Below, one piece after another: positions 18,370 to 55,685 of a stretch of 64,000 bases of DNA. The stretch is from Enterobacter sp. 10-1 (GTDB taxonomy: Bacteria > Pseudomonadota > Gammaproteobacteria > Enterobacterales > Enterobacteriaceae): positions 372,001-436,000 of the forward strand of contig NISF01000003.1 in assembly GCA_002270295.1 (NCBI GenBank), read 5' to 3'. Below the pieces are notes generated by a model. That model had not been told where the DNA came from. It saw only the letters and a list, made by a program, of their open reading frames with translations, and did no database searches. The stretch's first letter is position 1, and the number at the start of each line of letters is the position of its first letter. The translations under genes were made by a program, and so were the position numbers.

Positions 18370-18502
18370 CAGCATTTGCTCACTATTCTTATTAGCCAGG
18401 CGCGGCTGTGGCGCGGTATGATGGCTTTTGCCAGCGTCGTTTTTGATTCAGCGTCGCAGCGTACGTGTATAACGTGCAAAAATACTTTTCAGAATGCTCA
18501 CC

Positions 18503-24588: not shown

Positions 24589-24626
24589 TTCAGGCGGGCG
24601 CGACGCGCTGACGTTGACTCTCTATC

Positions 24627-24650
24627 AGGCCGGGTAACCGGCCTTTTCTT
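24627..24650 (+). terminator. Rho-independent terminator of bglX
   Basis: AGGCCGG-GTAA-CCGGCCT followed by TTTCTTTT lies 38 bp after the bglX stop. Confidence 0.9.
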
Positions 24651-24728
24651 TTCCTCTCACTGCGCATTTGGGCTACTCTTTTCTCTTAAGCTTCTGTAAA
24701 TGGAGCGCAAATTAAAGAGGGAAGCGGG

Positions 24729-25646: not shown

Positions 25647-25652
25647 GTTTTG

Positions 25653-28471: not shown

Positions 28472-28559
28472 AGGAGTAACCGGCAAGCATAACGCCGCTG
28501 ATCCCGCCGATAGCCATAAATAAGAACAGGGTAATAACCGCAATTTTTGCTGGCTTCAT
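28446..28559 (-). CDS. yohO: YohO, small membrane protein
   Basis: 37 residues, one predicted transmembrane helix (residues about 6-27, [20 protein letters not shown]). It closely resembles E. coli YohO and lies in the same place between yehW and mlrA. AGGAG lies upstream of the ATG. Its 3' end overlaps the 3' end of yehW on the opposite strand by 26 bp. The function is unknown. Confidence 0.85.
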
Positions 28560-39310: not shown

Positions 39311-39312
39311 TA

Positions 39313-41121: not shown

Positions 41122-41236
41122 AACAACTCCGGCACAAGGATAATGGCGATACTCTAGGGGCACAGCAAACGTTTGCCCAGATGAATAAATTTATCGCCCG
41201 ATAAGCTCGGGTTATTCTGCCTGCTCACTCTCAGCG

Positions 41237-42169
41237 ATGGATAACATGACCGAACCGTGGCAGCGGCTGCCCGCGCTTTCTCTCAAGCAGCTACAGTATT
41301 TTGTTACCCTGGCGCAGCTGCGTCATTTTACCGATACCGCCAACCGGCTGGCCATCAGCCAACCGGCGCTGAGCAGCGCGCTGCGGCAGGTGGAGGCGGT
41401 GCTCGGCGGCAAGCTGGTGAACCGCACCGCCTCTTCGGTCACGCTAACCGAACTGGGCGCGGCGATCCTGCCCCACGCGCAGCGCGTGCTGAGCGTGGCC
41501 CAACTGGCGTTTGATGATATGCGGCAGATTGTCGAAGCCGGCGGCGACGGTACGGTGCGCATTGGGCTGATGCCGTCGGTCAGCTCGCTGCTTTTTCCCC
41601 TGCTGCCGCAGACCCTGGCCGAGACCTTTCCGCGCCTGCGGGTCGAGTTTCACGATCGGGCCAACGACGCGCTGGTGCGCGAACTGCTGAGCGGGCAGAT
41701 TGATTTCGCCGTGGGCGCCATCGACAGCTCGTTGCCCGCAGAGCTGCAGGTTTATCCGCTGCGTGAGGACCCGTTTGTGGCGGTGCTGCACGGCGACGAT
41801 CCGCTCGCCAGCCAGCCGCATCTGCCGTGGAAGCTGCTGGCCGGTCGCGAAATCGCGGTGTTCTCGAAAGGCAATATCCAGCGGCTGGTGGGGGCGCTGG
41901 CGGAGAGCCATCGCCTGACGCTGAATACGCGCTATCAGGTGGACTATATCGAAACGCTGTATGGCCTGGTGCGGTCGCGCCTGGCGATAGCCATTCTGCC
42001 CGAGCTCTATACCACTCATTTATGCGATCCGCAGCTGAAGATAGCCCAGTTGCAGCAGCCCGCGCTGAGCCGCACCGTGGCGCTAATGCGCGGGCCGCAG
42101 CCGCTACCGCCGCTGATTGAGTCCAGCTTCGCGTTGCTGCTGAGTTCGCTGCGGGAAGTGAATCCGTAA
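41237..42169 (+). CDS. LysR-family regulator, probably of the ade operon
   Basis: 310 residues with a LysR helix-turn-helix (about 18-40, LKQLQYFVTLAQLRHFTDTANRLAISQPALSSAL) and a substrate-binding domain. It is divergent from ade across about 115 bp, the usual layout of a LysR regulator and its target. Regulation of adenine use is inferred from position alone. Confidence 0.85.
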   Translation: MDNMTEPWQRLPALSLKQLQYFVTLAQLRHFTDTANRLAISQPALSSALRQVEAVLGGKLVNRTASSVTLTELGAAILPHAQRVLSVAQLAFDDMRQIVEAGGDGTVRIGLMPSVSSLLFPLLPQTLAETFPRLRVEFHDRANDALVRELLSGQIDFAVGAIDSSLPAELQVYPLREDPFVAVLHGDDPLASQPHLPWKLLAGREIAVFSKGNIQRLVGALAESHRLTLNTRYQVDYIETLYGLVRSRLAIAILPELYTTHLCDPQLKIAQLQQPALSRTVALMRGPQPLPPLIESSFALLLSSLREVNP

Positions 42170-42206
42170 TCAGCCGCCACTCTTTCGGGGAGGCCGCAGC
42201 GCTGGG

Positions 42207-42629
42207 TCAGGGCAGGTGCTTAATCAGCACGTCCACGCTGAGGTGATTGATGTACTCGAGCGAGCGGGAAGCCATCACCCCCAGCAGGCGGTTGCGGTGG
42301 CCGGCAATAATCAAATCGATATTGCGCTGGCGCACGCACTCCTCGACGTCGGCAAAGCGGCGGGCGGTGACCAGCGCCAGCGTCTGCACCGGCAGAGCGA
42401 CGGTGGTAGCCAGTTCGTTGAGCAGGGCTTTGGCCTGGATCACCTCCTGCGAGACGTCATCATCCATCAGGCTGTCGGAAACATAGTTCAGCGCCCGATA
42501 GTCGGTACTGATATGGGCGATGGTTATCTTCATGGCGTTCTCTTCGGCCATTTTAGCCGCGTGCTGAAGCAGCGGAACCCCGTCAGTGCTGCTGTTAATC
42601 AGCACCAGCGCATGGTGATAAACGGACAT
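42207..42629 (-). CDS. Universal stress protein, UspA family
   Basis: 140 residues from the ATG at 42629 with GAGGTGGG upstream. It has a single Usp domain: the N-terminal strand HHALVLINSSTDG and a degenerate nucleotide loop GHRNRLLGVMASRSLEYINHL near 110-130, close to the UspC/UspD pattern. It is cytoplasmic. Which Usp it corresponds to cannot be settled from the sequence alone. Confidence 0.82.
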   Translation of the reverse strand: MSVYHHALVLINSSTDGVPLLQHAAKMAEENAMKITIAHISTDYRALNYVSDSLMDDDVSQEVIQAKALLNELATTVALPVQTLALVTARRFADVEECVRQRNIDLIIAGHRNRLLGVMASRSLEYINHLSVDVLIKHLP

Positions 42630-43028
42630 AGCCCACCTCGGTTGGTTATCTGCGCAAAACATTATTCCCACTGCTAATCTTGTGCCCGGGTAGCGGCGAA
42701 AGCAAATCGATATGTGCGTAAAAAGGGCAGGGAAATCAGGGCGGGAAGCGCATGTTCCGGGGGCTGGAAAACGGTAAAGCATCCCCCACGAGCGGCGGCG
42801 GGGTCAGTCCACTGGCAACCTGCCGTTGATGCAGTGGATTTTAGACGGTACAAACGACGACGCGATTATTAATGTCGGCCTGATTGTCGTCGTTCCAGCC
42901 TGCTTGATCGTATTCAAAATTACGGATTCGATAGCGCTATTCGGCATTATCTTAATGAGAAAAGAACGAATAAGATCAACTAAACCGGGCGGTTTCCCGT
43001 CCGGTTTTTTTATGCCTGTGTTTTAGAT
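42630..43028. other. Intergenic stretch with a terminator and no supported gene
   Basis: A 66-codon frame at 42829-43026 reads through a terminator stem and has no ribosome-binding site, so I do not call it. The terminator at 42984-43011 has arms AACCGG/CCGGTT and seven Ts, then TATGCCT. The same terminal hexamer-plus-tail pattern recurs twice inside the mobile element at 47114 and 53757. Confidence 0.5.
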
Positions 43029-43199
43029 TCAGCCCGGACCATGACCTCCACCAAATCCACCGCCACCGCCACCACCAGGCCCTTGCATCGGACCTCCGCC
43101 ACCGCCGCCTCCGCCACCTGGTCCCCACCAGGGCATGATACATCCGGATAAACTGGAGACACTTGCTACTACAAGCACGAAAAGGATTATTTTTTTCAT
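43029..43199 (-). CDS. Small glycine-rich lipoprotein
   Basis: 56 residues. The N-terminus MKKIILFVLVVASVSSLSGC is a textbook lipoprotein signal with lipobox LSGC, so C20 would be lipidated. The mature part is only 37 residues: IMPWWGP, a run of nine glycines, PMQGP, seven glycines, then FGGGHGPG. AGGAG-like bases precede the ATG. The function is unknown; the His and Met residues are too few to argue for metal binding. It lies just left of the thiM promoter region and the element. It is conserved in form with small Gly-rich lipoproteins of Klebsiella, as far as I recall. Confidence 0.72.
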   Translation of the reverse strand: MKKIILFVLVVASVSSLSGCIMPWWGPGGGGGGGGGPMQGPGGGGGGGFGGGHGPG

Positions 43200-43464
43200 C
43201 TTCAACTCCTGAACTGGAGTAGACAGATTATCATTCCGTTATGAATTTCTATTCAGCGTTTTCCTAAATCCCGAGTTGTCAATGACAATCTTCACATTTT
43301 CTACATTTTGTAGCTCATTATCTCGACATATCGCGATAGCGCCACCGGGGATGCCGCGTGTTTTGGTTTGCTCTTGTGGTCCCCAACATGGGTCACTGGC
43401 GGGACGTATGCTGTTTTTAGAAAGGTTGTGTCTTTGACTTCCCGATGGCATTATCCTGATCAGA

Positions 43465-43483
43465 GATTAACGGAATGTTAATC
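43465..43483. repeat. Inverted repeat upstream of the left TPP aptamer
   Basis: GATTAAC and GTTAATC flank GGAAT. The right-hand copy at 53900-53920 has GATTAATG and CATTAATC around AGGAG. The bases differ but pairing is kept, so the dyad is conserved by structure. Confidence 0.6.
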
Positions 43484-43508
43484 GCAAGTTTTTGATTTTG
43501 AATTAAAT

Positions 43509-43582
43509 GACTCGGGGTGCCCTTCTTCGTTGAAGGCTGAGAAATACCCGTACCACCTGATCTGGATAATGCCAGCGTAGTC
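43509..43582 (+). ncRNA. TPP riboswitch aptamer, left copy (upstream of the integrase)
   Basis: The THI-element core is intact: ACTCGGGGTGCCC, CTGAGA at 43537-43542, and TGATCTGGATAATGCCAGCG at 43558-43577. With the flanking promoter-like region it matches the thiM leader, not its neighbours. Past CGTAG the sequence departs from the thiM leader: GTC follows at once, where the right copy has GGGAAGTC. The downstream gene is now the integrase at 43642. Whether it still switches is untested. Confidence 0.85.
43546..43580. repeat. attL direct repeat of the integrated element
   Basis: These 35 bases are identical to 53982-54016 and end in CGTAG. They are the last shared bases before the two copies of the thiM leader diverge, so the crossover lies in or near them. 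Confidence 0.8.
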
Positions 43583-43595
43583 CTGGCGATTATCC
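43564..43595. other. Symmetric recombinase core at attL
   Basis: GGATAATGCCAG, a 7-bp centre CGTAGTC, then CTGGCGATTATCC. The arms are complementary except for one extra base. This is the size and shape of a tyrosine-recombinase core site (two binding arms around a 6-8 bp overlap). The left arm is riboswitch sequence, the right arm is element sequence; attR lacks a matching right arm. Confidence 0.65.
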
Positions 43596-43641
43596 AAGAT
43601 ATAAATCAAAGACTTGTCAGTTTTTTTCTCCTCATTTTGTT

Positions 43642-45027
43642 ATGTTGTCACTCGCTGAGACAAACAAAATGGCACACACATCTATCAATCACACCATCAT
43701 CCGTAACGGGATCTACTACGTCAGCTTTCGCCTGTCTGGTAATAAATATTTCCGTCGGTCGTTAGAGACGGATAGCTATAGCCAGGCGCAACTGCTGATG
43801 TCTTTTGCCTCTCCGGTTATTCCATTAGTCAAGCGTGGAACCATCCACCCGGATCAGTTCGGTGATCGTCTTTCAGATTTCAGTAACCACTTAAAGCAGC
43901 AGAATGAACAGTGGCTGACACAACGATTTCTTATTGGCGAGTGCCGTGATACTCAACCGATTGTAATGCAGGAATATCGGGAGGTTGTCGCGCCTGGGGT
44001 AGTTCTTGGCTCTCAGAAGCAAGCAGAACAAAAGGAAGTGCTAACGCTGGCTGGCGCCTGGAACATGTACAAAAAGGAGAAGGGCAGCAACTGGACTAAA
44101 GCAATTGCCCAAGCCAATGAGCGTTTTATGGAAGTGCTGCTTGTTGTCCTGGGGTCATCAACAGACGTAATGACAATCACTAAGCAAGATATTAAGCAGG
44201 TGATGGAAGTAGTAGAGAACCTGCCTAAGCGTGTTGTTCAGCCGTACCGCGCAATGACTATCCAGCAACTGATTGAATGCGATGATGTTCCACCAGATGA
44301 TTTAGTGGGAGCTGAGGCGATTCATAAGCATCTCAAAATATACAAATCTTTGTTCAAGACCTTTCTCACTGACAGCAAGGATATTCTGGAGAAGTCTCCG
44401 ACTGATGGCGTAGTTGCTGCACCATCTAAGGCGAGATTTGGCGCATACAGCGCAGCAGAAATGAGAAAATTTGTGGGGTGGGCACTCAAGCAGCCGGATG
44501 GCTGGCAGAAGTGGGTTACATTGTTGTTGGCGTACACTGGAGCCAGGAGAGGCGAGATCGCTAAGCTGGAGAAGTCACAGATCAAGTATGATGAAGACAG
44601 CCAGCGGCACTATCTTCTGATCGCTGAAGGCGGGCAGGGCAAAACGGAAAATGCCACACGGCAGGTGGCGATCCATCCCAAGCTGATCGAGTGGGGCTTC
44701 CTCGATTTCGTTAACCGCCAATGGAAGGAAAAAATCTTTTCGCCTGTATCTGGTAAGAACATGCCGAAGATCGGTAAGGTTTTAGCGGATGTCCGTGATC
44801 AACTTGGAATTCCTTATCTTGATGATTATGGGCAGCGGCGGTTGGTTCATAGCTTTCGGCATACAATGATCTCAACCTGTTTAGCTGGCTGGGTTGGAAA
44901 CTTGGCACACCTGCAACAGGTGGTCGGCCATGAGAAAAGCGGCTCAGGAATTACTCGGCGGTATCTGCATACGTTCCCGCTATCCACGGTCTGCTATGTA
45001 ATAGATGGGTTACGTTGGGAATCCTAA
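43642..45027 (+). CDS. int: Tyrosine recombinase/integrase of the element
   Basis: 461 residues (an ATG at 43669 would give 452; neither has a good Shine-Dalgarno). The N-terminal part resembles the arm/SAM-like domains of phage integrases. The catalytic domain has R in GARRGEIAKLE (near 296-306), H-x-x-R in HSFRHTMIST (near 412), VVGHE (near 431) and the nucleophile tyrosine in TRRYLHTF (near 444). It should integrate and excise the element at the thiM leader. The start overlaps a TGTCACTC motif that recurs at the right end. The upstream promoter is apparently that of native thiM with its aptamer. Confidence 0.93.
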   Translation: MLSLAETNKMAHTSINHTIIRNGIYYVSFRLSGNKYFRRSLETDSYSQAQLLMSFASPVIPLVKRGTIHPDQFGDRLSDFSNHLKQQNEQWLTQRFLIGECRDTQPIVMQEYREVVAPGVVLGSQKQAEQKEVLTLAGAWNMYKKEKGSNWTKAIAQANERFMEVLLVVLGSSTDVMTITKQDIKQVMEVVENLPKRVVQPYRAMTIQQLIECDDVPPDDLVGAEAIHKHLKIYKSLFKTFLTDSKDILEKSPTDGVVAAPSKARFGAYSAAEMRKFVGWALKQPDGWQKWVTLLLAYTGARRGEIAKLEKSQIKYDEDSQRHYLLIAEGGQGKTENATRQVAIHPKLIEWGFLDFVNRQWKEKIFSPVSGKNMPKIGKVLADVRDQLGIPYLDDYGQRRLVHSFRHTMISTCLAGWVGNLAHLQQVVGHEKSGSGITRRYLHTFPLSTVCYVIDGLRWES

Positions 45028-45041
45028 CTAGTCTGGGAAAG

Positions 45042-45749
45042 ATGATTATGCCAAGTTTATTATTAAAAACAGATACGAGACGCTATATCCGACACGGCAA
45101 ACACCAGGGCGGTTCAGATGCATGGCGCACCAATCCCAGAATGTTTAAAAACCTCGCCCGTGAGTTCGGCGGGTTTACTCTGGATGCGGCAGCGAGCGCG
45201 GATAACACACTCTGTGAGCGGTATTGGTCGGAATATGATGACGCTCTTACACAGGACTGGTCTATTGAGGATCGCGTCTTCTGCAATCCTCCGTTCTCCC
45301 TGGCGGCTGAGTTCCTGGCTCACGCTCATAAACCTGAGCTATCTGTTTTTATGATTCCGTGTCGCCCTCAGACCTCGTGGTGGTTGCGGTACGTCTGGGG
45401 CAATCCCCACTGTCACGAAATCCGCTTCCTGCATCGTGGTCCCAAATTCTTACATCCAGAGACAGGGAATAGCTCAATCAGAGCACCGCTTCCGGTTGCC
45501 GTGGTGATATACAGAAGCATCCCGTGTAACGGTGATAAGCGGATCACTGTGAACTGTGCGGATACGTTACTTCCACTGGAAGTGGTCTGTAGGGGAAGTA
45601 AGCCGGGGAGGCCCAATGTGTACGACTGGCAGACCCTCGATAGCGTGATCAATCTCTGGGACAACAAACGGCAGACAGCCAAACAGATAGCGGAGGCATT
45701 GTCGATCCCCCTACGAACAGTCCAGCGGGTAGTGCAAAGATTGGTCTAA
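45042..45749 (+). CDS. Phage-type adenine-N6 DNA methyltransferase with C-terminal helix-turn-helix
   Basis: 235 residues from the ATG at 45042. The N-terminal 180 residues match the phage Dam family (PF05869 type): WRTNPRMFKNLAREFGGFTLDAAAS (substrate and SAM-binding) and the catalytic motif NPPF in FCNPPFSLAAEF (near 80-90). The last 45 residues form a likely helix-turn-helix, NKRQTAKQIAEALSIPLRTVQRVVQRL. It starts 14 bp after int. Possible roles are self-modification against host restriction or control of its own promoters; the target site is unknown. Confidence 0.78.
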   Translation: MIMPSLLLKTDTRRYIRHGKHQGGSDAWRTNPRMFKNLAREFGGFTLDAAASADNTLCERYWSEYDDALTQDWSIEDRVFCNPPFSLAAEFLAHAHKPELSVFMIPCRPQTSWWLRYVWGNPHCHEIRFLHRGPKFLHPETGNSSIRAPLPVAVVIYRSIPCNGDKRITVNCADTLLPLEVVCRGSKPGRPNVYDWQTLDSVINLWDNKRQTAKQIAEALSIPLRTVQRVVQRLV

Positions 45750-45811
45750 CTGCGCCATAATATCCATGCAATATGGCGTAAAGTGAATGATTTTTATGCG
45801 GTAAAGAATCG

Positions 45812-45967
45812 ATGGATGTACCCACCACGGCACTTATTGACTTGTATTGTCTGAAATCAGATAGTTGCACAAAATATGCACCAAAAATAACCTTTGTATT
45901 GTTCGGCTTACTCTCCATGCTTTGGGGGAGTATCATCACAACAGCAATGAAAGTATTAAGAGGTTGA
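45812..45967 (+). CDS. 51-residue putative membrane protein
   Basis: The frame encodes 51 residues with one strong hydrophobic segment (about 26-45, TFVLFGLLSMLWGSIITTAM) and ends 5 bp before the DUF4145 gene. Its last codons AGA GGT supply that gene's ribosome-binding site. There are two cysteines in the N-terminal half. No family is recognised. The tight spacing argues for a real two-gene unit; coding status is otherwise unproven. Confidence 0.45.
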   Translation: MDVPTTALIDLYCLKSDSCTKYAPKITFVLFGLLSMLWGSIITTAMKVLRG

Positions 45968-45972
45968 TGTAA

Positions 45973-46593
45973 ATGACTGATTATTTTCCGGCTACATATG
46001 ATAGCAATGCTTTCAATTGCCCCCATTGCGGAGTTTACGCGAGACAAAATTGGGAGATATTCTGGGTAAACAATGAAAGGTCGGGAATGCGTTCATCTCA
46101 ATGTTATCAATGTAATGAATTAGCCTTTTGGCATTGCGGTAATCTAATAATCCCAGCCTCAGCTAACATTGAGATGCCCAACCAAGATATGCCAGAGGAC
46201 TGTAAGGCCGACTACATGGAAGCCAGAAGCATCGTTAACCTGTCCCCTAAAGGAGCTGCGGCGCTTCTCCGTTTATGTCTCCAGAAACTCATGCTCCATC
46301 TCGGAGAACCTGGGAATAACATTAACGCTGACATTAAGTCTCTCGTCGAGAAAGGATTGCCTCCTCGTATCCAGCAGGCAGCGGACATCTGCCGCATCGT
46401 CGGAAATCAGGCTGTGCACCCCGGAGAAATCAACCTTGATGATGACCCACAGTTAACGCATAGTCTATTTAAGCTATTGAATATTATTGTGGACGATCGT
46501 ATCACAAGACCTAAAGAGATTGAGACGATGTTCCAGAGCATGCCAGTTAACGCATTGAAAGGCATTGAAGGAAGAGACAAAACTCCAGGATAA
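45973..46593 (+). CDS. DUF4145 protein with N-terminal zinc ribbon
   Basis: 206 residues. The N-terminus has CPHC (near residues 16-19) and CYQC (near 44-47), a zinc-ribbon pair. The rest is a DUF4145 domain (about 75-190) with [17 protein letters not shown] and [18 protein letters not shown]4145 occurs fused to or beside restriction enzymes and in phage and defence-linked proteins, so an anti-phage or anti-restriction role is possible. That is inference. Confidence 0.75.
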
Positions 46594-46696
46594 AAGTGCA
46601 CCACCTTTCTATAGGCAATGATCGCAGGCATAAACCGTTTGATCAAAAATCACGATAGAAAGGGAGAGGAGGGAGACCCTCCTCTAGTGTTACAGC

Positions 46697-46981
46697 TTAG
46701 CTTGCCTTTTTGTACGAATCACGAACGCCATCGCGATAGCCCTCAGCAAATGCAGCTTGCGGGCTTTTATGGCGAACAGTACCAGCTTGGCTATTAGGAA
46801 GAATCTCCAAATCAGGAAGCGTAGTCAAATCAACCCTAGTTTGCCCTGTGCGGGCAAAGCCAGCGCGATACCCCTGCTCATAAGCGCACCCACAACATTT
46901 GTGGCGTCCTTCACCACCTTGGTCGTCAGGTAGACTATCGAAAAGGATATTGTATCGATGCGGTTTTTTACACGTTGTCAT
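46697..46981 (-). CDS. Small protein with two RHK...GYR repeats
   Basis: 94 residues, the only leftward gene of the element with good coding character. Two related units occur: GRHKCCGCAYEQGYRAGF (about 25-42) and VRHKSPQAAFAEGYRDGV (about 69-86). The first unit has a CCGC cluster. TAGGT lies upstream of the ATG. I do not recognise a family. It may be a small regulator or phage-interaction protein. Confidence 0.55.
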   Translation of the reverse strand: MTTCKKPHRYNILFDSLPDDQGGEGRHKCCGCAYEQGYRAGFARTGQTRVDLTTLPDLEILPNSQAGTVRHKSPQAAFAEGYRDGVRDSYKKAS

Positions 46982-47113
46982 CTATAAATACCTACGTCAA
47001 TTTAAGTTGAGTATTTACATGACCAACCAAGCCTGGCACAATCAAGAAATCAAAACTGATGTAGAGGCTAACAATCGTTATGAGTTTGCAGACTCATGGC
47101 GGTCATGCTTCAT

Positions 47114-47143
47114 AAACCGGATGGGAAACCTTCCGGTTTTTTT
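47114..47143 (+). terminator. Rho-independent terminator inside the element
   Basis: The arms AAACCGGA and TCCGGTTT enclose a short loop, and a T run plus ATGCCTA follow. It is nearly the same as the terminator at 53757. A short rightward frame from 47020 reads into it and is not called. Confidence 0.8.
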
Positions 47144-47788
47144 ATGCCTATAATTCAGGCACCAATACTACATATAGGTTTATCAAAATCCCTACCCCCT
47201 ATATGATGAGTATTCTAGTAAGGATTATCTTTAGTACAAGAGTTGATTTTGACGTTAGATTGAGGTTGTGGAAGGGGAATAATCGCGAAGTCCACGTCGC
47301 ATAAGGCCTGGCGAAGATGTCAATAAATCAGAAAAAAAAATGAAAATTTGATCGAGTGCTGAAGAATTCAGCAGATGTATAGATTGCGTGGTCTGATGCT
47401 ACTCAATTCTCAACATTGCCTCCCCGCCGGAGGCACATTCCAGCATCCCCCTAACATCGTACTCGGATGGGCGGGAAATATCTTAGGCGCAATCGCAGCA
47501 GTGCCTAGCAGGGCTGATGGCCCCCTCAATTTTCACACCGATCCTGCTCAAATATCGTACAGGCATCAAGGTCATGCACAGATGTTAAATTTGTTAAATT
47601 TCGGCCCTATTTAACATAATGTACGTTACCCGCACCACGCGATCGGCACTCACCATGCAATCAATCTGGAAGGGCTGTTACGAGGGTTTATGCGTGGGAA
47701 TTGGCAGAAACTTACTGCATAACTCGTGAATAAAAGAGGGCTGTTTTTGCATAGAGATTTTTCGGGTCTAACGGCTCGTTTTGATACA

Positions 47789-48027
47789 TTTTCCCACAAT
47801 CTGGGTGGCGTCTGACTGCGTGTAAAGTTGATGCGGCGCGACAGCCTCATTTTACCTTCTGCCTGCCGCAATTCCCACAAGATGCCGCCAGCGGCTGACC
47901 ATATGGCCCGGCTCCCGGCCCTGGTCTTTGCCTCATCCAACAATGTAAACAGCAGAACCACATCCAGACCCCTCCACGCCCTCTATAACGCGATGTAACG
48001 CGTTCTGCGACGTTTTCCCACAATCTG
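47789..48027. repeat. Two copies of TTTTCCCACAATCTG
   Basis: Identical 15-bp copies at 47789-47803 and 48013-48027, both preceded by a partly similar AACG-containing stretch. They are spaced 224 bp apart. The role is unknown. Confidence 0.5.
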
Positions 48028-48547
48028 CATCTCAATATGACCGTGATTGCTGCGCCACTCACAGAGGCATACAGGCCCCTCAAAAGCGATGATTTTTCGA
48101 TGTCTTTTGAGAATTAAATGGTTTTTATTGTTTTTCGACAAAAAGGGAGGGGAGATCGTGATTGTTGTTTAGCCCCTATCTGAAGGGGCAAGCCACGATA
48201 CCGGCAGACAGAATTGACGAAGCCCCGGCTTGCGCGGCGCTCAGACTTGATCGTTGTTGTAATTACTTTCCTCCACACCATAGCGAGTTCACTTCCACGC
48301 GCGGAGAGTGTCCTAAGTAGGGCCTGAAAGGTCGAAATACGGTAGGTTTTTGGGCTATTTGGTGGCATTTGTTTTGAGAAAAGATCGCAAGGTGGCGGGG
48401 TGATATGGCAGGAGTAACCCAGGTGATTTTCACCGGGGGTAGGGACAAGATAGTGTCCCCATAGTCTCCCGGTAATTTCCACATCCATTGGTTAAGATCC
48501 TTTACTAATGGAATCCACCACTGAAGAAAGGTAAGCGGTAACAGATT

Positions 48548-48610
48548 AACCATGTCCCAAAATGGTACATGAACCATGTCCCAAAATGGTACATGAACCA
48601 TGTCCCAAAA
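48548..48610. repeat. Tandem 24-bp repeats (possible iterons)
   Basis: Two complete copies (48548-48571, 48572-48595) and the first 15 bp of a third. Each copy contains the interrupted dyad TGGTACATGAACCA spanning the junctions. The exact 24-bp period is near two helical turns, as for iterons or clustered operators. Confidence 0.7.
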
Positions 48611-48620
48611 AAGGACACTA

Positions 48621-48664
48621 ATAAGATCAATATTAAAATAAGATCAAAAACACCAATAAGATCA
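48621..48664. repeat. Three ATAAGATCA boxes
   Basis: Copies at 48621-48629, 48638-48646 and 48656-48664 are spaced 17 and 18 bp and lie in an AT-rich stretch directly after the 24-bp repeats. Together they resemble a small replication origin or a multi-site operator. Confidence 0.6.
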
Positions 48665-49178
48665 GTAAAACCTTATGCGGTCTTCCCTGGCCGTGAAGAC
48701 CTTACACAAGGTCAACACCAACACCTTTTCAGATCGCCATTGTGATGGCTATCGTTCTTTCTGACCTTGTTCAGTCGCTACGCTCGAAGCTTCGCGATAT
48801 GCATCGCCCATACGGTGACTCGTTATCCTGTTCTGACCGAACAGGCTCGCCACCTTTTGGGCAGCAAGGGCGACAGCCCGCGCAGTAATTTGGAAACAAT
48901 GTCACGAGACCGTAGGTCGAGAGTCTATGGGCCGCGAGGGTGTGGGGGTCGGGTATGGCAACCAAAGACCGTGCCAACCCAACCGAGGCTTCACAGGTGG
49001 CCCGTATAGCGATTTAAATGCATCAGGTAATACGATGGTAGCGGGTGTTAGTTAGAAGGCCGTAGAATCGCTTACAGAGCCTTACAGCTCGTTTTAGCGT
49101 TAATTAAAATGATCTTGACATTGAAATCAGGATTATGTCATGGTATGATAACGAAATCAATGTATTCTATAGTTTTTC

Positions 49179-49207
49179 TTGCTATTTGCAGGGATTACTG
49201 ATACAAT
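49179..49207 (+). promoter_or_regulatory. Probable sigma-70 promoter for the rightward gene block
   Basis: TTGCTA and TACAAT are separated by exactly 17 bp. It lies 103 bp upstream of the 147-residue gene at 49310 and has no competing gene between. Confidence 0.55.
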
Positions 49208-49309
49208 GGTTTTAAATCAAATAAGGTGCGTCGCCGCCCGGTGATGGCTCCTGACAAATGGGTACAAATGACCTCCGAGAATAATTTCAATAACTCAACG
49301 GAGAACCCA

Positions 49310-49753
49310 ATGAACAAACCAAAATCCCAACGCATCACCCCAGCCACCATGACTGGCGAGCAGATCGCAGACGCCATCATGTACGGCACATACACCAAAA
49401 CCGCACTTTGGTCTTTCATTAGCCGTAGTGGTGGCGCTGACGCAGCACACGCGAAGTACCCGCAACTGGCTGTTGCACTTCATATCCTGAAACAGGAAAA
49501 GAAAAAGGCAAAGAGCGCTCGTGCTATTAAGGCGATCCTGAAACCGCTATCCCGCCAGTTTGCTGATGGTCAATCCCTGACTGAGATTCTGGCCCCGGTG
49601 CTCCAGACTTACCGCCGCCTGTATCGTGAGAAACTGAATCTCGATGTGACGCTGGAGCAGGTGATCCTGTTCCTGATTGCCACTGATGGTGTGGAAAACC
49701 TGGAAAACTACGGTTACGCCATCACTGGCGACTTTCCTACCGCCGCCCTTTAA
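49310..49753 (+). CDS. Hypothetical element protein, 147 residues
   Basis: The ATG at 49310 has CGGAG 7 bp upstream, so it is preferred over in-frame starts at 49226 and 49268. The protein is helical and rich in Lys in the middle (EKKKAKSARAIKAI). The C-terminal half has LAPVLQTYRRLYREKLNLDVTLEQVILFLIATDGVENL. No membrane segment or catalytic motif is visible. It is the first gene of a rightward block ending near 51429. I do not recognise it. Confidence 0.6.
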   Translation: MNKPKSQRITPATMTGEQIADAIMYGTYTKTALWSFISRSGGADAAHAKYPQLAVALHILKQEKKKAKSARAIKAILKPLSRQFADGQSLTEILAPVLQTYRRLYREKLNLDVTLEQVILFLIATDGVENLENYGYAITGDFPTAAL

Positions 49754-49835
49754 ATAATTGCTGACAACCTGAGCCGGTTCGCCTTCTGGGCGACCACTGG
49801 CGAGGCTTGTTTGTGCCTATACAAGGAGAGCAATC

Positions 49836-50010
49836 ATGAAAATCCATCTTGATGATGAAACATTCGAGATATTCCGTCAGCTACGCTGACGCGAGGAACG
49901 TTCCGCTGCCCGGTCTGATTAGCACCATGTGCCGCAACATGGCCCGCCAGCTACAAGAGCGCGAGCAGGAGCGCGAGATGAAAAAATCTTCATCTGTCCT
50001 GTGTAAATAA
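49836..50010 (+). pseudogene. Ribbon-helix-helix protein with a +1 frameshift
   Basis: AAGGAGAG precedes the ATG at 49836. Seventeen codons (MKIHLDDETFEIFRQLR) end at TGA at 49887. If one base (the T of that TGA) is skipped, the frame continues to 50010 and the joined product aligns without gaps with the next gene's product, both with Pro at position 23. This is a one-base insertion in an RHH paralogue, or a +1 recoding site (CGC TGA C). Confidence 0.6.
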
Positions 50011-50024
50011 GAGGAGAAGCATAA

Positions 50025-50213
50025 TTGAATATTTCATTTCCAGATGAAACGTACCGAACGTTGCTGAAAGAGGCTAACCGCCGCGACATGCCAATGGCGA
50101 AAATGTGCAGCGAACTGCTTCAAACAGCAGCAAAGATCATCGAAAAAACAAACTCAGACAATCAAACAGACGACCAGCGAGGGAAGAGTGACCACAGAGA
50201 CAGAAAAAACTAA
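50025..50213 (+). CDS. Ribbon-helix-helix DNA-binding protein
   Basis: 62 residues from a TTG start with GAGGAG upstream. The N-terminal strand and two helices (NISFPDETYRTLLKEANRRDMPMAKMCSELLQ) fit the RHH/CopG fold. The tail is hydrophilic. It is a tandem paralogue of the frameshifted gene before it, and overlaps the start of the next gene. It is likely a repressor acting on the element's own promoters or origin. Confidence 0.65.
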   Translation: MNISFPDETYRTLLKEANRRDMPMAKMCSELLQTAAKIIEKTNSDNQTDDQRGKSDHRDRKN

Positions 50214-51027
50214 CAATCAGCGTACACCAGGCGAGGGATACGGCGTAATAGAGATGCGTTATCTCTGTGCTAAACAACTGATCATCCGATCTACGGGTGA
50301 GATTGTGGATGTAACGGACGCAATGCGCCTCCTGTACATTTACATGCTGAACCAGTTTCTGGGCTTCTCAAGCCGAGGGATGTCATTTTATAAAGATCAA
50401 CGGGAAATGGCGGCGGCGCTGGGCTGGGACAGAAAAAAGGTGATGCGCTCTTTGGATGGGCTGAAAAAGATCGGCCTAGTCGAATAGGCCGGGAAAATCG
50501 GTAACAGCGAAGCGTACACGGTCTACTTTTTCAGTGACATAGCGGAGTCTTTGGCGGTTGTCCACGGGGAGTGGAAGGGTGCCCCGGCTTGGGATCACGA
50601 CCGTGCAAGCGGGAAGAAAACACGCAGGAAAACGAAGACCAAAAAATCCGAGGAGATTAAAGGAGATGGCAAATCCGATGACGGGGCTATACCGCAGGCA
50701 GAAACACAGGCAGAGCAGGCCGCAAAACAGGCAGAACCCACTAACCAACCCGCTGCTACACCCACTAATCAGAATCCTGGTGTGGCCTCTGGCAGTGCCC
50801 CGGATGCTTCTGAACAACAATCTAGCGTGGCATCTAACGACGACAGCGGCGGCAATGATGGCGCCGATGGTGATCATGAGGTGAACCAGGAGGCGCAGCC
50901 CGTTGTTGTGGAAACCGGCTATAAAATACCAACAATCAACCGTAAATCCACTGGGCTGACAGCCGCGCAGATCGCTATTTATAGGGCTGAGGCGGCTGCG
51001 GCTGACCCAGACGATCCGCCTTTTTAA
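50188..51027 (+). pseudogene. Putative winged-helix replication protein interrupted by an amber codon
   Basis: From a GTG at 50188 the frame runs 99 codons to TAG at 50485-50487 and then stays open to 51027 (279 residues if read through). The first part has a winged-helix look (FYKDQREMAAALGWDRKKVMRSLDGLKKIGLVE), like initiator or RepO-type N-terminal domains. The linker is charged and Ala/Pro/Gln-rich. The end RKSTGLTAAQIAIYRAEA is compact. A CAG to TAG change would explain the stop. Replication is an inference from the fold and position. Confidence 0.6.
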
Positions 51028-51039
51028 TGTAGAGGAATA

Positions 51040-51429
51040 ATGATTGATGACCGTAACGGCGTAAACGCCGCACCAGAAAAGATCGACCCAGAAAACCTTC
51101 CCAACCTGACCCGCTCCAGAAAACTCCGTGCCAGAACTGAATCTCTAATTGCTACTGCAAAAAAACTTTTGGTGTCCGGTATCGGGCCAAACGAGGTTGC
51201 TTGCAGACTCAGATTAGATCCGGCTGTAGTGCTCGACCTCTATCAATCGTGGAATCCGCGTTACCGGAAGGTGACTCCCCCCAATGCCTGGACATGCCAA
51301 AAGCTGGCGATCCAGTGCTTCGGGACTGGTGCTCCTCTAAATGTGATGATAAAAAATAAACCCAACAAATTTAACGTCATATTTGATTGCCTAAGTTATA
51401 GTTTCATGTTAAAATTATATACAAGGTGA
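51040..51429 (+). CDS. Hypothetical element protein with an HTH-like segment
   Basis: 129 residues; AGAGGA lies just upstream of the ATG. Residues about 35-65 (SLIATAKKLLVSGIGPNEVACRLRLDPAVVLDLY) look like a helix-turn-helix of the kind that senses spacing in small phage regulators or terminase-small-subunit-like proteins. The C-terminal 30 residues are poorly conserved in composition. It follows the broken replication gene by 12 bp. No family is recognised. Confidence 0.5.
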   Translation: MIDDRNGVNAAPEKIDPENLPNLTRSRKLRARTESLIATAKKLLVSGIGPNEVACRLRLDPAVVLDLYQSWNPRYRKVTPPNAWTCQKLAIQCFGTGAPLNVMIKNKPNKFNVIFDCLSYSFMLKLYTR

Positions 51430-52048
51430 TTAATAGATTCGAAAGAGTCTGCGTACTACTGCCATTGTATGTCACCTCTCAGGCGGGCTGGTTCCCGAGA
51501 TTTGCCTCTTTGCACCAGTCCGCCACCTTATTCATTCAGCAGGGCAACAATCCCGCTGAACACGAAATAATTCTGCCGTGGTCCTAGCCCGCCGCGATGG
51601 GATTTGCCAGCGGTCTAACAACCGCACTACGTCCCTCTCCTCAGTGGGCCGTCTGCCGGACGTAAAACGGCACGAGCGCGGCTAAACCGCGCTCCCTTAT
51701 TCCCAGCCCGGTTTAGCCGGGTTATCGGTTTCCGATAACGCCCGTAAAGGGCGCTGCACCCTTTCCCAGATCAGAAAAATAACAAAGATAAATGCTCATT
51801 CCTTTGTCCTCCGGGGCGGTATCTCCTGCCGCCCGGTCTTTTTTCTGATGCAGCGGGGAGAACCCCCGTTAACCAAAGGTTAACCCCGTCTCGCGGGGGT
51901 ACAGTTCCCTTATCCACGCCTTCCGACGGCGTGATGCAGATAAGGGAATGAAAGCGACGCTTTCACCGCAAAGCGGCTTCGGGCTGGACTGATGCAGCAA
52001 CAAATAAATGAAGGTCGCCACCGCGCGACCTCTTTTGTGCCTGCACGT
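51430..52048. other. Hairpin-rich non-coding block before the capsid genes
   Basis: No gene is seen. At least seven perfect or near-perfect stems follow each other, including GAGCGCGG/CCGCGCTC near 51670, AGCCCGG/CCGGGTT near 51706, TTATCGG/CCGATAA near 51722, GGGCGG/CCGCCC plus Ts near 51813-51841, a long TTCCCTTATC/GATAAGGGAA stem near 51904-51949, and AGGTCGC/GCGACCT plus Ts near 52013. Some are terminators; the array could also be a packaging site or structured RNA. Confidence 0.6.
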
Positions 52049-52104
52049 CGTCAATTTTGACGGCTGGCATATGAATCAAAAACACAACACCGTCAAATCT
52101 GACG
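52049..52104. promoter_or_regulatory. Paired dyads CGTCA-N4-TGACG upstream of the capsid genes
   Basis: The first dyad is at 52049-52062 and the second at 52091-52104, with centres 42 bp apart (four helical turns). Both have the same five-base arms. They lie just before the decoration gene start at 52128 and look like a pair of regulator sites. Confidence 0.55.
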
Positions 52105-52127
52105 TTAACCAATTATGGAGTGACTCA

Positions 52128-52457
52128 ATGTTAACTGATATCGAAGATCGCAGTTTCCGGGATGTCTGCATTTATCGGGATGACCCGATCTTCTCGCACT
52201 ACACAAAAACTTTTGCCACCCTGGCTGTGGACACCGTGCCGGGCACGCTATTAGCCAGCGATGGCACGGCATACGCCAGCGGCAGCGATATTCTAATCGC
52301 GCTGGACTCCCACAAGGCTGGCGCTAACGTCCCAGTAATTGTTGTGGATCGTGGTGTGGTTCTTAACCGCGCCGGACTGATTGGCACCAATGCAACCGCC
52401 GTTGCAAACGCAATCGCAGCAATCAAGGCCGCTGGCCTGAACCGTGTTTCAGAATAA
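52128..52457 (+). CDS. Lambda gpD-like head decoration protein
   Basis: 109 residues from the ATG at 52128 (GGAG 8 bp upstream); lambda gpD has 110. The beta-rich body KTFATLAVDTVPGTLLASDGTAYASGSDILIALDSH and the end VVLNRAGLIGTNATAVANAIAAIKAAGLNRV fit the decoration-protein family. Such trimers clamp the expanded capsid. The capsid gene follows 11 bp later in the lambda D-E order. Confidence 0.82.
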   Translation: MLTDIEDRSFRDVCIYRDDPIFSHYTKTFATLAVDTVPGTLLASDGTAYASGSDILIALDSHKAGANVPVIVVDRGVVLNRAGLIGTNATAVANAIAAIKAAGLNRVSE

Positions 52458-52468
52458 GGAAAGAGAAA

Positions 52469-53491
52469 ATGGATTTTAAATATAATGATTTTACCGGAAG
52501 TTTCGTTAAACCTTTCGGGAATAATTTCCTGCTGCAAGAGCTTGGCCTCTTCAAAGAAAAGCATTCGGATACACCTAAGATCGAAAGCGACGACCTTCGT
52601 GACGGCGCAATTGAGGTAGCTGGTTCCATAAACCGTTACGGCAGCGAGCTAATTGCGACAGAACGCCCCCTATCTCGTTCACGCCTGCTAGAAATCCCCC
52701 ATTGGGCTCTAAGCGGTGAGGTTAGTGCGGCCGATTTCCAGGGTATTCGCCGCCCAGGAACTCAACGCCAGCAAACAATGGATCAGCTGGTCAGTGATGA
52801 GGCTATCCGTCAATTCCTGAAATATCGAACCATAAAAGAGGATGTTCTAGCCACCTGCCTTTTTAAAGGCATTGTCAACGCGCCGTACACCCAGCAAAAA
52901 GTTATCGATATGGAGGAAGAATTCGGCGAAGGATTCTCCAGCGCTGTTATCAGTGTCAACCTGCCATCCGCTATTCTGGAAACGCTGGATACTGCCGCTA
53001 CCGATCTGCGCGTGAGCCTGGGTGGTTGGGTTAAAGCACTTTCAGGGATGTTGGTTCTGTGCTCCCCCGAGTTCTACAAAAAGATTAAATACTCAGAAGA
53101 GATCAGGGTCCTCGTACAACATGGTGTGCTCCCCGATTCTACGCTGTTCAATGCGTCTGTACGGGCCAATCTGCCTGCTTATCAGGCATTCGAGTTGGAC
53201 GGTCTGACCTTTGTGAACTGTGTTGGATACGAGAAGTACATCTCAACCGGGGAAGCATTCATGGTGCCCGTGTTCGCTGATAATATCGTACAGTCTGACC
53301 ACAGCCCACGCGAAGTCATTTCCGGTCCGGCATCGCGTAACGCGAGGGTCGCCGCGAGTGGTGTACAAGCTCCATTCTATGCCTACGGCTTCGAGGATAG
53401 ACTAGGCAACAGAACCGTTATGTCAGAATTTGGGGTATTACCCCTACAGTACGATCTATCGATGACCAAAAAACTGACATTCGACGTGTAA
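52469..53491 (+). CDS. Lambda gpE-like major capsid protein
   Basis: 340 residues; lambda gpE has 341. GGAAAGAG precedes the ATG. The major capsid protein E family pattern is visible: an N-terminal LLQELGLFKEKHSDTPKIESDDLRDG, the middle VNLPSAILETLDTAATDLRV and the C-terminal GEAFMVPVFADN region of the P-domain and axial part. It would build an HK97-fold shell with the upstream decoration protein. No protease, portal, scaffold or terminase gene is present. Either the element makes its own shell using helper parts, or these genes are remnants. Confidence 0.82.
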   Translation: MDFKYNDFTGSFVKPFGNNFLLQELGLFKEKHSDTPKIESDDLRDGAIEVAGSINRYGSELIATERPLSRSRLLEIPHWALSGEVSAADFQGIRRPGTQRQQTMDQLVSDEAIRQFLKYRTIKEDVLATCLFKGIVNAPYTQQKVIDMEEEFGEGFSSAVISVNLPSAILETLDTAATDLRVSLGGWVKALSGMLVLCSPEFYKKIKYSEEIRVLVQHGVLPDSTLFNASVRANLPAYQAFELDGLTFVNCVGYEKYISTGEAFMVPVFADNIVQSDHSPREVISGPASRNARVAASGVQAPFYAYGFEDRLGNRTVMSEFGVLPLQYDLSMTKKLTFDV

Positions 53492-53544
53492 GCGGATTTA
53501 GGAGCGGCGATTGCCGCTCCCCGTATTTGGAGAGGTAAAAAACC

Positions 53545-53754
53545 ATGAGGTTAAATCTATTAGGTGTCGGCAACGCGCCTTTGCTATCGGTCAAGGTAAA
53601 GACGCTGGACGATGCCGGACTGCTGAACGTATCTGCGCTCGCCAGATCGCTGGGCACACCCCGGAGCACCTTTTTATCGCGCGTGGCGACGCATGGCCTT
53701 GAAGCTGCGATCTTGTATTATGCAACTGAACAGAAATTGAAAAATGTAAGCTAA
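53545..53754 (+). CDS. Small protein with a putative helix-turn-helix
   Basis: 69 residues from the ATG at 53545 with GGAGAGG upstream. The segment NVSALARSLGTPRSTFLSRVATHG (about 27-50) looks like a helix-turn-helix. It ends just before a terminator and the attR region, so a role as a directionality factor or regulator is possible. No family is certain. Confidence 0.5.
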   Translation: MRLNLLGVGNAPLLSVKVKTLDDAGLLNVSALARSLGTPRSTFLSRVATHGLEAAILYYATEQKLKNVS

Positions 53755-53756
53755 TG

Positions 53757-53783
53757 CCGGATGGGAAACCATCCGGTTTTTTT
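53757..53783 (+). terminator. Rho-independent terminator after the capsid block
   Basis: CCGGATGG-GAAA-CCATCCGG: a perfect 8-bp stem with a GNRA tetraloop, then seven Ts. Confidence 0.9.
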
Positions 53784-53801
53784 ATGCCTAGAGAAAATGT
53801 T

Positions 53802-53834
53802 CTGTCACACAAACTGTCACTCATCCTGTCACAC
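53802..53834. repeat. Three CTGTCAC repeats with 12-bp period near attR
   Basis: CTGTCACAC, CTGTCACTC and CTGTCACAC lie at 53802, 53814 and 53826. TGTCACTC recurs at 43646 at the left end. This fits arm-type integrase or excisionase sites. Confidence 0.65.
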
Positions 53835-53899
53835 ATGGCCCAAAAGGGCCGCTTTTGCCGTTTACAAGACTTCCCGCTGGCATTACTATCCTGATCAGG

Positions 53900-53920
53900 G
53901 ATTAATGAGGAGCATTAATC
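53900..53920. repeat. Inverted repeat upstream of the right TPP aptamer
   Basis: GATTAATG and CATTAATC flank AGGAG. It is the counterpart of the dyad at 43465 with compensatory changes. Confidence 0.6.
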
Positions 53921-53945
53921 GCAAGTTTTTGATTTTGAATTAAAT

Positions 53946-54023
53946 GACTCGGGGTGCCCTTCTTTGTGAAGGCTGAGAAAAACCCGTACCACCTGATCTG
54001 GATAATGCCAGCGTAGGGAAGTC
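53946..54023 (+). ncRNA. TPP riboswitch (thiM leader), right copy
   Basis: The complete aptamer runs from GACTCGGGG to GCGTAGGGAAGTC, with CTGAGA and GATAATGCCAGCG conserved. GACT at the start can pair with AGTC at the end (P1). The thiM ribosome-binding site GGAG lies 37 bp downstream, so TPP should hide it and lower thiM-thiD translation, as in E. coli. The 5' part is apparently element-borne. Confidence 0.93.
53982..54016. repeat. attR direct repeat of the integrated element
   Basis: Thirty-five bases identical to 43546-43580, inside the right riboswitch copy, ending in CGTAG. Confidence 0.8.
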
Positions 54024-54070
54024 AGAGACCGCAAGGTCGTTGCTTCTTCATCGCCTGGCTGGAGCAAACG

Positions 54071-54847
54071 ATGCAAGCTGAGCCACTGAACCCCGCGCAT
54101 ATCGCGCATCTGCGACATCTTTTTCGCCGCCATTCCCCCCTTATTCACTGCATGACCAACGACGTGGTGCAGACTTTCACCGCCAACGTCCTGCTGGCGA
54201 TTGGCGCTTCCCCCGCGATGGTGATTGACCCGCAGGAGGCAGGCCAGTTTGCCGCCATTGCCGATGCGCTGTTAATTAACGTCGGAACCTTAACCGTCGA
54301 CCGCGCCGACGCCATGCGGGCGGCTGTCCGCAGCGTGCAGCAGGCCGGCAAGCCGTGGGCGCTGGACCCTGTTGCGGTCGGCGCGCTCACTCTGCGCAGC
54401 GAATTCTGTCGCGATCTGTTAACCCTGCAGCCGGCCGCCATTCGCGGCAATGCCTCGGAGATTATGGCCCTGGCGGGGATGAGCGGCGGCGGGCGCGGGG
54501 TCGATACCACCGATACCGCGGCGGCGGCGCTGCCGGCCGCCCAGGCGCTGGCGCGTCAGCTGAATACGGTGGTTGCGGTGACCGGTGAGGTGGATTACGT
54601 CACCGACGGCCAGCGCACGCGCGCCGTAAGCGGCGGGGATCGCCTGATGACCCGCGTTGTTGGCACCGGCTGCGCCCTGTCTGCGGTAGTTGCCGCCAGT
54701 ACGGCGCTTCCCGGCGACCGGCTGGAAAACGTCGCGGCGGCCTGCGGCCTGATGAAGCTGGCGGGCGGGCTGGCGGCCCGTCAGGGCGGCCCGGGCAGCT
54801 TTACCCCGGCGTTCCTTGATGCGCTGTACGAGGAGGACCATCAATGA
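54071..54847 (+). CDS. thiM: Hydroxyethylthiazole kinase
   Basis: 258 residues, close to the 262 of E. coli ThiM. CTGGAG lies upstream of the ATG within the riboswitch expression platform. The ribokinase-like fold has [25 protein letters not shown] near 26-50 and the anion hole/catalytic motif GTGCALSAV near 197. It phosphorylates the thiazole alcohol for thiamine salvage. It overlaps thiD by 4 bp (ATGA). The mobile element lies immediately upstream yet leaves a complete leader. Confidence 0.95.
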
Positions 54848-55644
54848 AGCGGATTAACGCCTTAACGATTGCCGGCACCGACCCCAGCGGCGGCGCGGGG
54901 ATTCAGGCCGATCTTAAAACCTTTTCCGCCCTCGGCGCCTACGGCTGCTCGGTGATCACCGCGCTGGTGGCGCAAAACACCCGGGGCGTGCAGTCGGTGT
55001 ACCGCATCGAGCCTGATTTTGTTGCCGCCCAGCTGGACTCGGTGTTCAGCGACGTCCGTATCGATACCACCAAAATTGGCATGCTGGCGGAAACGGATAT
55101 TGTCGAAGCCGTGGCCGAGCGGCTGGCGCGCTACCGGATCGCCAACGTGGTGCTGGATACGGTGATGCTGGCGAAAAGCGGCGATCCGCTGCTGTCAGCC
55201 TCGGCGGTGGCGACGCTACGCACCCGGCTATTGCCGCAGGTTTCGCTGATAACGCCCAACCTGCCGGAGGCCGCGGCGCTGCTGGATGCTCCCCACGCGC
55301 AGAATGAAAAAGAGATGCTTGAGCAGGGCCGGGCGCTGCTGGCGCTGGGCTGCGGCGCGGTGCTGCTGAAGGGCGGTCATCTGGACGATGCCGAAAGTCC
55401 GGACTGGCTCTTTAGCGCCGAAGGCGAGCAGCGCTTCACCGCCCCGCGGATCAGGACCAAAAATACCCACGGCACTGGCTGTACGCTCTCCGCCGCGCTG
55501 GCCGCGCTGCGTCCGCGCTACCACGATTGGGGACAAACGGTTGCCGAGGCCAAGGGTTGGCTCTCAGCGGCGCTGGCGCAGGCGGATTCGCTGGAAGTGG
55601 GGCAGGGGATTGGTCCGGTGCACCATTTCCACGCCTGGTGGTAA
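54844..55644 (+). CDS. thiD: HMP kinase / HMP-phosphate kinase
   Basis: 266 residues. The N-terminal [26 protein letters not shown] binds the pyrimidine, and [15 protein letters not shown] near 207-221 holds the catalytic Cys/anion hole. It phosphorylates hydroxymethylpyrimidine twice for thiamine synthesis. It is translationally coupled to thiM, so both genes depend on the TPP riboswitch. Confidence 0.95.
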
Positions 55645-55685
55645 GCCTGATATACTGACGCCAGATTTCAGTCAGGAAAAGACAA

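Follow-up and report, generated by a model that had tools for sequence, protein, structure and literature searches.

A tyrosine integrase element that probably entered the thiM riboswitch of Enterobacter sp. 10-1 through its P4-P5 arm

How did two copies of one riboswitch come to stand 10.4 kb apart, one in front of thiM and the other in front of a tyrosine integrase gene? The question is raised by a locus of Enterobacter sp. 10-1 (assembly GCA_002270295.1, contig NISF01000003.1). The window analyzed, which is the whole stretch of 64,000 nucleotides from position 372,001 to position 436,000 of the contig, holds at 43465–54016 what an initial annotation had read as an integrative element inserted in a thiamine pyrophosphate (TPP) riboswitch and carrying its replacement. 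The analysis described here led to a similar reading, to which we assign a probability of about 0.9: the thiM TPP riboswitch houses a 10.4-kb element that encodes its own tyrosine integrase and likely entered by recombination in a 26-bp interval of the P4-P5 arm, and the aptamer 5' part and predicted promoter of the element now precede thiM and would keep it under TPP regulation.

Both copies were matched by the Rfam model of the TPP riboswitch (RF00059; gathering score, 54.3 bits). The thiM-side match exceeded the gathering score at 74.5 bits, and the integrase-side match, at 51.6 bits, fell just below it. No other Rfam match was found up to an E value of 5 within 42700–54200. The right copy is intact; the left copy is without the 3' letters of P4 and the 3' strand of P1 and is not a complete aptamer, so that of the two aptamers initially described, only the right one stood as such. 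The open frames of thiM and of the integrase confirmed the proposed gene order (Table 1). The copies resemble each other over a block of 53 nt (43478–43530 and 53915–53967) and a block of 50 nt (43531–43580 and 53967–54016), each with one difference and separated by a one-base shift, and they share the identical 35-bp end that had been noticed at the outset (43546–43580 and 53982–54016). Beyond this end the copies part: the right one runs on into the P1 3' strand and thiM, whereas an integrase leader follows the left one. The guanine-plus-cytosine content per kb is 0.47 to 0.52 across 43000–53999, with values of 0.57 to 0.66 in the left flank (38000–42999) and 0.63 to 0.66 in the right flank (54000–57999).

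A megablast search with the element region found the integrase in Escherichia coli, likewise in front of thiM. In all 14 of the E. coli loci fetched (L021 to L023, L059 to L066, and L123 to L125; loci are designated L and genomes G), the integrase, intact or truncated, lies between rcnR and thiM. The comparison with element-free genomes, which the initial annotation had proposed for Klebsiella, was made here with E. coli: K-12 supplies the empty site (attB), with one aptamer at thiM. Twelve loci were aligned to K-12, and the other two (L124 and L125), compared separately, agreed with the alignment. The attachment (att) core is a 21-nt sequence, CTGATCTGGATAATGCCAGCG, in the P4-P5 arm of the aptamer. 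On the integrase side, 148 to 150 of the 150 bases upstream of the core equal K-12 in 10 of the 12 loci; in the exceptions, L021 and L061 (78 and 80 of 150), a different element-type promoter occupies this position. Exact equality on this side ends 3 to 5 nt past the core in 12/12. On the thiM side, 74 to 75 of the 75 bases downstream of the core equal K-12 in every locus, and upstream of the core only 59 to 77 of 150 do. Exact thiM-side equality starts 2 to 3 nt left of the core in seven loci (L022, L023, and L062 to L066), in which the crossover is confined to 26 to 27 bp (ACCTGATCTGGATAATGCCAGCGTAG in the 26-bp cases); in the remaining five, it extends 27 to 56 nt left of the core.

These junctions place the boundaries inside the aptamer and bear out the claim that the target is a riboswitch. 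The crossover interval is the P4-P5 arm; on either side of its loop stand the stem letters CTGG and CCAG, much as inverted repeats border the core site of a tyrosine recombinase, and the arrangement may resemble the crossover in the anticodon arm of tRNA genes. The elements differ in cargo and have the integrase and ends in common. Sequence comparison in E. coli shows that the upstream region, with the 5' part of the aptamer, comes from the element and that the host provides the P1 3' strand and thiM, in agreement with the claim that the element brings its own promoter (here a predicted one) and aptamer. In the proposed mechanism, the integrase would catalyze insertion and excision. Upon insertion, the host upstream region and aptamer 5' part would stay with the integrase, and the predicted promoter and aptamer 5' part of the element would end up before thiM, where the hybrid riboswitch would sense TPP. 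Since the controlled gene is on the far side, a promoter and half an aptamer, able to work with the other half from the host, would have to come with such an element.

The possibility that two aptamers were already present at thiM in element-free relatives was contradicted. In 19/19 other genomes of the genus, one match held the riboswitch and thiM. A further short match occurred in four of them: three cover 23 to 31 bases, and the fourth (G005) is a site of 52 bases that resembles the riboswitch and lies elsewhere. No close integrase was found in these 19 congeners, with nothing above about 44% identity over part of the length. Among 5,426 E. coli genomes, 4,689 cover the K-12 rcnR-thiM spacer to 80% or more at a single place. 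Coverage of 80% was reached by the two integrase types of E. coli in 26 and 120 of the 5,426 genomes (226 and 144 for any match).

Integrases adjoining TPP aptamers were also found in other genomes, where the initial annotation had suggested searching for them. When one genome per species was scanned, 34 loci had an integrase relative, and a TPP core lies close upstream of the integrase in 20 of 21 Enterobacterales loci (assigned by record title). As a control, the core was near the integrase in 0/14 loci with poorly related integrases (L006 to L019; flanks of about 1.5 kb). An RF00059 search of the records behind 22 loci found both copies on one contig in 16, and in each of these, the thiM-side copy scored 71.7 to 78.4 bits, compared with 35.6 to 62.8 bits for the integrase-side copy; in the other six (G100, G106, G112, G114, G119, and G120), the copies were on different contigs or one was not found. 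In a family-level set of 246 genomes, 19, including that of the window, had an integrase relative. These loci show the TPP core pattern (L127 to L138, with the window locus itself as L128, and the fragment L147), an end of the RNase P RNA gene, rnpB (L139 to L142), or neither target (L143 to L146); Rfam matches above the cut-off were to TPP in seven and to rnpB in four. A class-wide draw gave 3 of 369 genomes, the window's own included (2 of 368 others), at E values up to 1e-30, and close kin of the integrase are thus uncommon outside the family. A scan of viral contigs yielded one integrase relative, L058. The L040 record of Erwinia typographi (G115:C93) has three TPP copies in a row, at 30782, 42660, and 56156, which probably represent two elements in tandem.

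The rnpB gene recurs next to more distant relatives of the integrase. Those with 22 to 36% identity lie near it in 11 of 13 non-enterobacterial loci (7/8 and 4/5); L049 and L053 have no RNase P RNA gene nearby, and in L057 it is 2.6 kb off. Three of five mid-distant loci are also near it (L002, L003, and L005, not L004 or L020). Repeats of the rnpB 3' end were found downstream in L043 (117 bp), L045 (141 bp), L048 (175 bp), L050 (168 bp), and L057 (113 bp), and short ones of about 20 bp in L044 and L052. No repeat of such length was found within the DNA examined for L002, L003, and L005 (only about 4 kb) or L046, L047, L051, and L056. In the literature searched, rnpB was not found as an integration target.

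In a midpoint-rooted tree of 50 integrases, the 30 TPP-associated sequences and L058 formed one branch with a support of 100/100. Its nearest branch is a third kind, followed by the enterobacterial rnpB integrases, with the other rnpB sequences outside. Target labels require four changes on this tree, with a least possible value of three and a shuffle average of 17.9; several end branches are long, and long branches meet. Because of these branches and the midpoint-only root, a switch from rnpB to TPP is the direction we infer, without further claim. The third clade includes L143, L145, L146, and L020, and the genome of the window has one such integrase (L020/L146). No Rfam match above the cut-off adjoins the integrase in L143 to L146; in L143 and L145, a flanking frame lies near a GTCGCCTTCACAGGCGTC stem, and this frame reads like the start of what we take to be rluB.

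The initial annotation described promoter-like sequence upstream of both copies. A consensus scan gave a predicted promoter for the right copy and none for the left. Inverted partial copies of the att core stand upstream of the left aptamer (Table 1) and at 53868–53891 (matched by 0/200 shuffles), where the copy overlaps the predicted thiM promoter; candidate roles are integrase binding, promoter control, or both. By their letters, element-side promoters are mostly of two types, each with an inverted partial core about 90 to 125 bp upstream of the core. Most right copies borne by elements show the inverted core clearly; in those of L034, L039, L055/L112, and L106, it is weak or missing. It is also weak in K-12 (11/200 shuffles as good) and indistinguishable from chance in many element-free congeners.

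When an element is lost or decays, its promoter would stay before thiM. The second promoter type precedes thiM in 555 of 5,426 E. coli genomes and the first type in 36, so that promoters of the second type outnumber the integrase matches of either type (226 and 144). The second type occurs without a detectable integrase in at least 185 genomes even if the two integrase lists do not overlap, and in about 330 if the lists overlap, which we think they do. The thiM stretch of O157:H7 strain 493/89 has no integrase and one core; 2.3 kb of it matches part of the GMF054 locus at 97.8% identity and, over up to 0.9 kb, the right ends of other elements at 84 to 87%. Strain 2EC1 is similar by annotation, with one core, and a B-strain derivative has kept a remnant, also with one core. 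An element-type promoter without an integrase in these three fetched loci indicates that such a control region can persist after the integrase is gone. Within the window, the stretch at 42811–43014 matches parts of L036, L022, and L063 located about 1 kb ahead of the right cores of those elements. This likeness to element right ends, together with the element-type promoter of the left copy, makes it most likely that an older element had left a scar here, into which the present one inserted. Element-type promoters were also found in element-free congeners (G001, G005, G008, G017, and G018), and these may be scars as well; besides a 220-nt match of 66% in G018, the likeness to elements is limited to 32 to 68 nt next to the aptamer.

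The predicted fold of the hybrid thiM-side riboswitch keeps P1, P2, P4, and P5, and this fold and the score of the intact aptamer suggest that thiM may stay TPP regulated. The integrase-side RNA of the window is predicted to fold differently, with P5 paired to an element-side arm, CTGGCGATTATCC. With G-U pairs counted and three rows that are not integrase-side arms left out, 17/17 distinct arms of the window type pair with P5 at 11 to 12 of 12 positions, a level reached by 0/50 shuffles of each arm; 0/9 arms of other types exceed 10 positions. The arms are related to one another, and because the letters after the core also served to distinguish the types, the split is partly circular; among the sequences on the tree, it matches how the TPP clade divides. 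The leader of the E. coli TC24 element has the same hairpin in its lowest-energy fold, with no excess stability overall (z score, −0.37), and the L059-type leader is without it. In the main subgroup, the hairpin of arm and P5 would keep the integrase message from folding as an aptamer. Alternatively, the arm may be an inverted repeat in DNA that binds the integrase.

The cargo of the window element includes phage-type and defense-type genes (Table 1). Its integrase scored 27.0 bits against Pfam Phage_integrase, 0.1 under the cut-off of 27.1. The L022 counterpart of the frame at the head-decoration position has a weak likeness to lambda gpD (20.6 bits; cut-off, 29.1), and the L022 capsid gene is also phrog_29. 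At L022 positions 24082–28539, capsid, decoration-like, and tape-measure-like genes lie near a replication-like gene. Capsid-forming phage satellites (cfPICI) are islands of about 10 to 15 kb with an integrase, a replication-like gene, and a major capsid gene, and their definition includes a full head module with terminase, portal, and protease. The window element resembles them in size and in these three genes and differs in that no terminase or portal was found. Pfam and PHROG scans found no terminase, portal, or protease among its 11 proteins, of which the longest besides the integrase and capsid protein has 244 aa, or among the 10 of 15 L022 element genes scanned. With capsid-type genes and a replication-like gene, the L022 and window elements look like unclassified satellite-like elements. 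The same site houses elements with other cargo: an OLD-like nuclease in L060, DRT2 in L064, a type IV restriction-like protein in L123, and a cytosine methyltransferase in L021; among eight proteins tested, there was no defense match for L022 or L065 and a weak one for L059. The element region had no DNA match among phage records, against which the integrase gave two weak protein matches. Seventeen plasmid records matched over 1 to 3% of the element query, at thiM where a feature was named.

Several observations weigh against the reading that an integrase-bearing element entered the riboswitch and rearmed thiM. Taken by itself, the window narrows the crossover to 35 bp at best. The thiM promoter is a weak consensus match, and the predicted fold of the right copy (attR) is no more stable than shuffles (z score, 0.32). 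One Enterobacterales locus, L039, has a truncated integrase and a core copy only downstream, with no left copy, and in L058 (9700–10060) the aptamer sequence amounts to only about 40 nt even with the core counted. The window element looks partly decayed: its DUF6945 frame is short, and none of its frames reaches the length of the 2.1-kb gene of L022. Finally, the left aptamer is not lost in general, since about half of the integrase-side copies score above the Rfam cut-off. This last point would suit an integrase-side aptamer that still works, with integrase made only at low TPP; such copies reach 62.8 bits, and PGAP annotates a riboswitch in L022, L023, L059, L064, and L123. The missing P4 and P1 letters of the window copy, the burial of P5 in a predicted hairpin, and the retention of P5 pairing in the window-type arms and not in the others make a working left switch unlikely; it stands for the other types, which have no such arm. 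An origin of both aptamers by segmental duplication, or by homologous recombination between riboswitches, without site-specific integration, would fit the near identity of the window copies over about 103 nt, which is more than the core. The switch within 26 to 27 bp in seven E. coli loci compared with the empty site, together with the common integrase and ends of elements with different cargo, rules out duplication in place of integration for practical purposes, and an older scar of the same promoter type would explain the additional likeness in the window.

Two further alternatives concern how the site is chosen and whether the element still moves, and both are considerably more credible. 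The integrase may read a DNA sequence that is conserved because it encodes an aptamer, with RNA folding playing no part in target choice. Recombination acts on DNA, the inverted core-like string upstream of the promoter lies as binding sites would, and the third clade has no adjoining Rfam match above the cut-off; the presence of related integrases at another structured RNA, rnpB, and the recurrence of conserved RNA genes as targets speak for the opposite, and we lean modestly away from targeting by DNA alone. The recurrence of rnpB fits conservation alone and is no proof of a role for folding; the early suggestion that a conserved RNA fold makes a good target became more plausible and is not proven. 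We somewhat favor a wider scenario in which this integrase family lives off conserved structured RNAs, with rnpB as the ancestral target and one clade switched to the enteric TPP riboswitch. With a portable promoter and aptamer front half serving for attachment, its islands would disable the aptamer of their own integrase message by means of the hairpin arm, shuttle the thiM control region between species, and leave it behind upon decay. That the window element is a fossil no longer able to move has just under an even chance: the signs of decay are joined by long stretches without a family match, and they are set against a complete integrase frame and two identical cores.

Three known systems lie close to this one. 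The tRNA and transfer-messenger RNA (tmRNA) islands of Islander use a tyrosine integrase, split a conserved RNA gene, and restore their target (PMC4383910). As in the window element, a displaced fragment marks the other end; unlike in those islands, the target here is a cis-regulatory aptamer in an mRNA leader, and the element must supply the 5' half and a promoter because the gene is at the far end. Phage PhiW104 occupies the ryeA/ryeB small RNA (sRNA) locus of Salmonella, and lysogeny alters the 5' part of one RNA and its transcription (PMC7380047). Its attachment site is likewise inside a regulatory RNA locus, but its target is a free sRNA and not a ligand-binding riboswitch controlling a metabolic gene. 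The dusA-associated islands replace the 5' end of their target with their own sequence, with predicted promoters before and after insertion, and are also an integrase family tied to one site (PMC4482086); unlike here, the target is protein coding and no riboswitch is involved. In the literature searched, no riboswitch was reported as an attachment site, and an earlier listing in island database tables is possible. If the reading is correct, riboswitches join tRNA, tmRNA, and sRNA genes as attachment sites of mobile DNA. It would provide natural hybrid riboswitches and a route for metabolic control regions between species, would explain the different thiM upstream sequences of O157:H7 and K-12, and raises the question of whether folding RNAs become targets on account of their structure or of conservation alone.

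Table 1. Features at and around the thiM element, with positions in the window
Feature	Position	Strand	Evidence
Probable remnant of an older element's right end	42811–43014	+	72%, 71%, and 75% matches to L036, L022, and L063
Terminator-like repeat	42981–43026		Repeat family D1, common to 47113 and 53753
Inverted partial att core copy (reverse complement of GGATAATGCCAGC..GGGAAGTC), upstream of left aptamer	43436–43456	-	Score 33, 0/200 shuffles; blastn match
Left TPP aptamer copy (integrase side, attL), broken after GCGTAG	43503–43600	+	51.6 bits
Crossover interval in attL, ACCTGATCTGGATAATGCCAGCGTAG, P4-P5 arm	43555–43580	+	Mapped on E. coli attB/attL/attR; identical letters in window
Element-side arm CTGGCGATTATCC, complementary to P5	43583–43595	+	Hairpin of −16.5 kcal/mol, z score −4.25
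Tyrosine integrase, 452 aa, TPP-riboswitch clade	43669–45027	+	PHROG "integrase," E = 6.8e-25; frame complete
Dam-type adenine methyltransferase with helix-turn-helix	45015–45749	+	PF05869, E = 2.4e-22
PD-T7-4 anti-phage defense protein (DUF4145)	45973–46593	+	PADLOC, E = 3.8e-97; PF13643
Phage-type protein, function unassigned	46697–46981	-	phrog_3941; family also in E. coli TC24 element
Open frame, no family match	49226–49753	+	
99-aa frame resembling start of a replication-initiation-like protein (DUF6945)	50188–50487	+	PF22182, phrog_8102
Open frame at head-decoration-gene position, no family match in window	52008–52457	+	
Major capsid protein (Phage_cap_E)	52469–53491	+	PF03864, E = 2.9e-10; phrog_29
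Small protein after capsid gene, no family match	53545–53754	+	
Terminator-like hairpin near element's right end	53756–53777	+	1 found, shuffle average 0.5
Predicted element-borne thiM promoter, TTTACA-17-TACTAT	53861–53889	+	Weak consensus match: 1 found, shuffle average 0.3
Right TPP aptamer (thiM side, attR), hybrid, intact	53940–54036	+	74.5 bits; predicted fold with P1, P2, P4, and P5
Crossover interval in attR	53991–54016	+	Mapped in E. coli; identical letters in window
thiM, hydroxyethylthiazole kinase	54071–54847	+	Frame; gene name from homologous E. coli loci
thiD	54844–55644	+	Frame; homologous E. coli loci

Elsewhere in the window, a Peptidase-S11 cis-regulatory RNA (RF03039) was matched at 18415–18498 with 60.4 bits.

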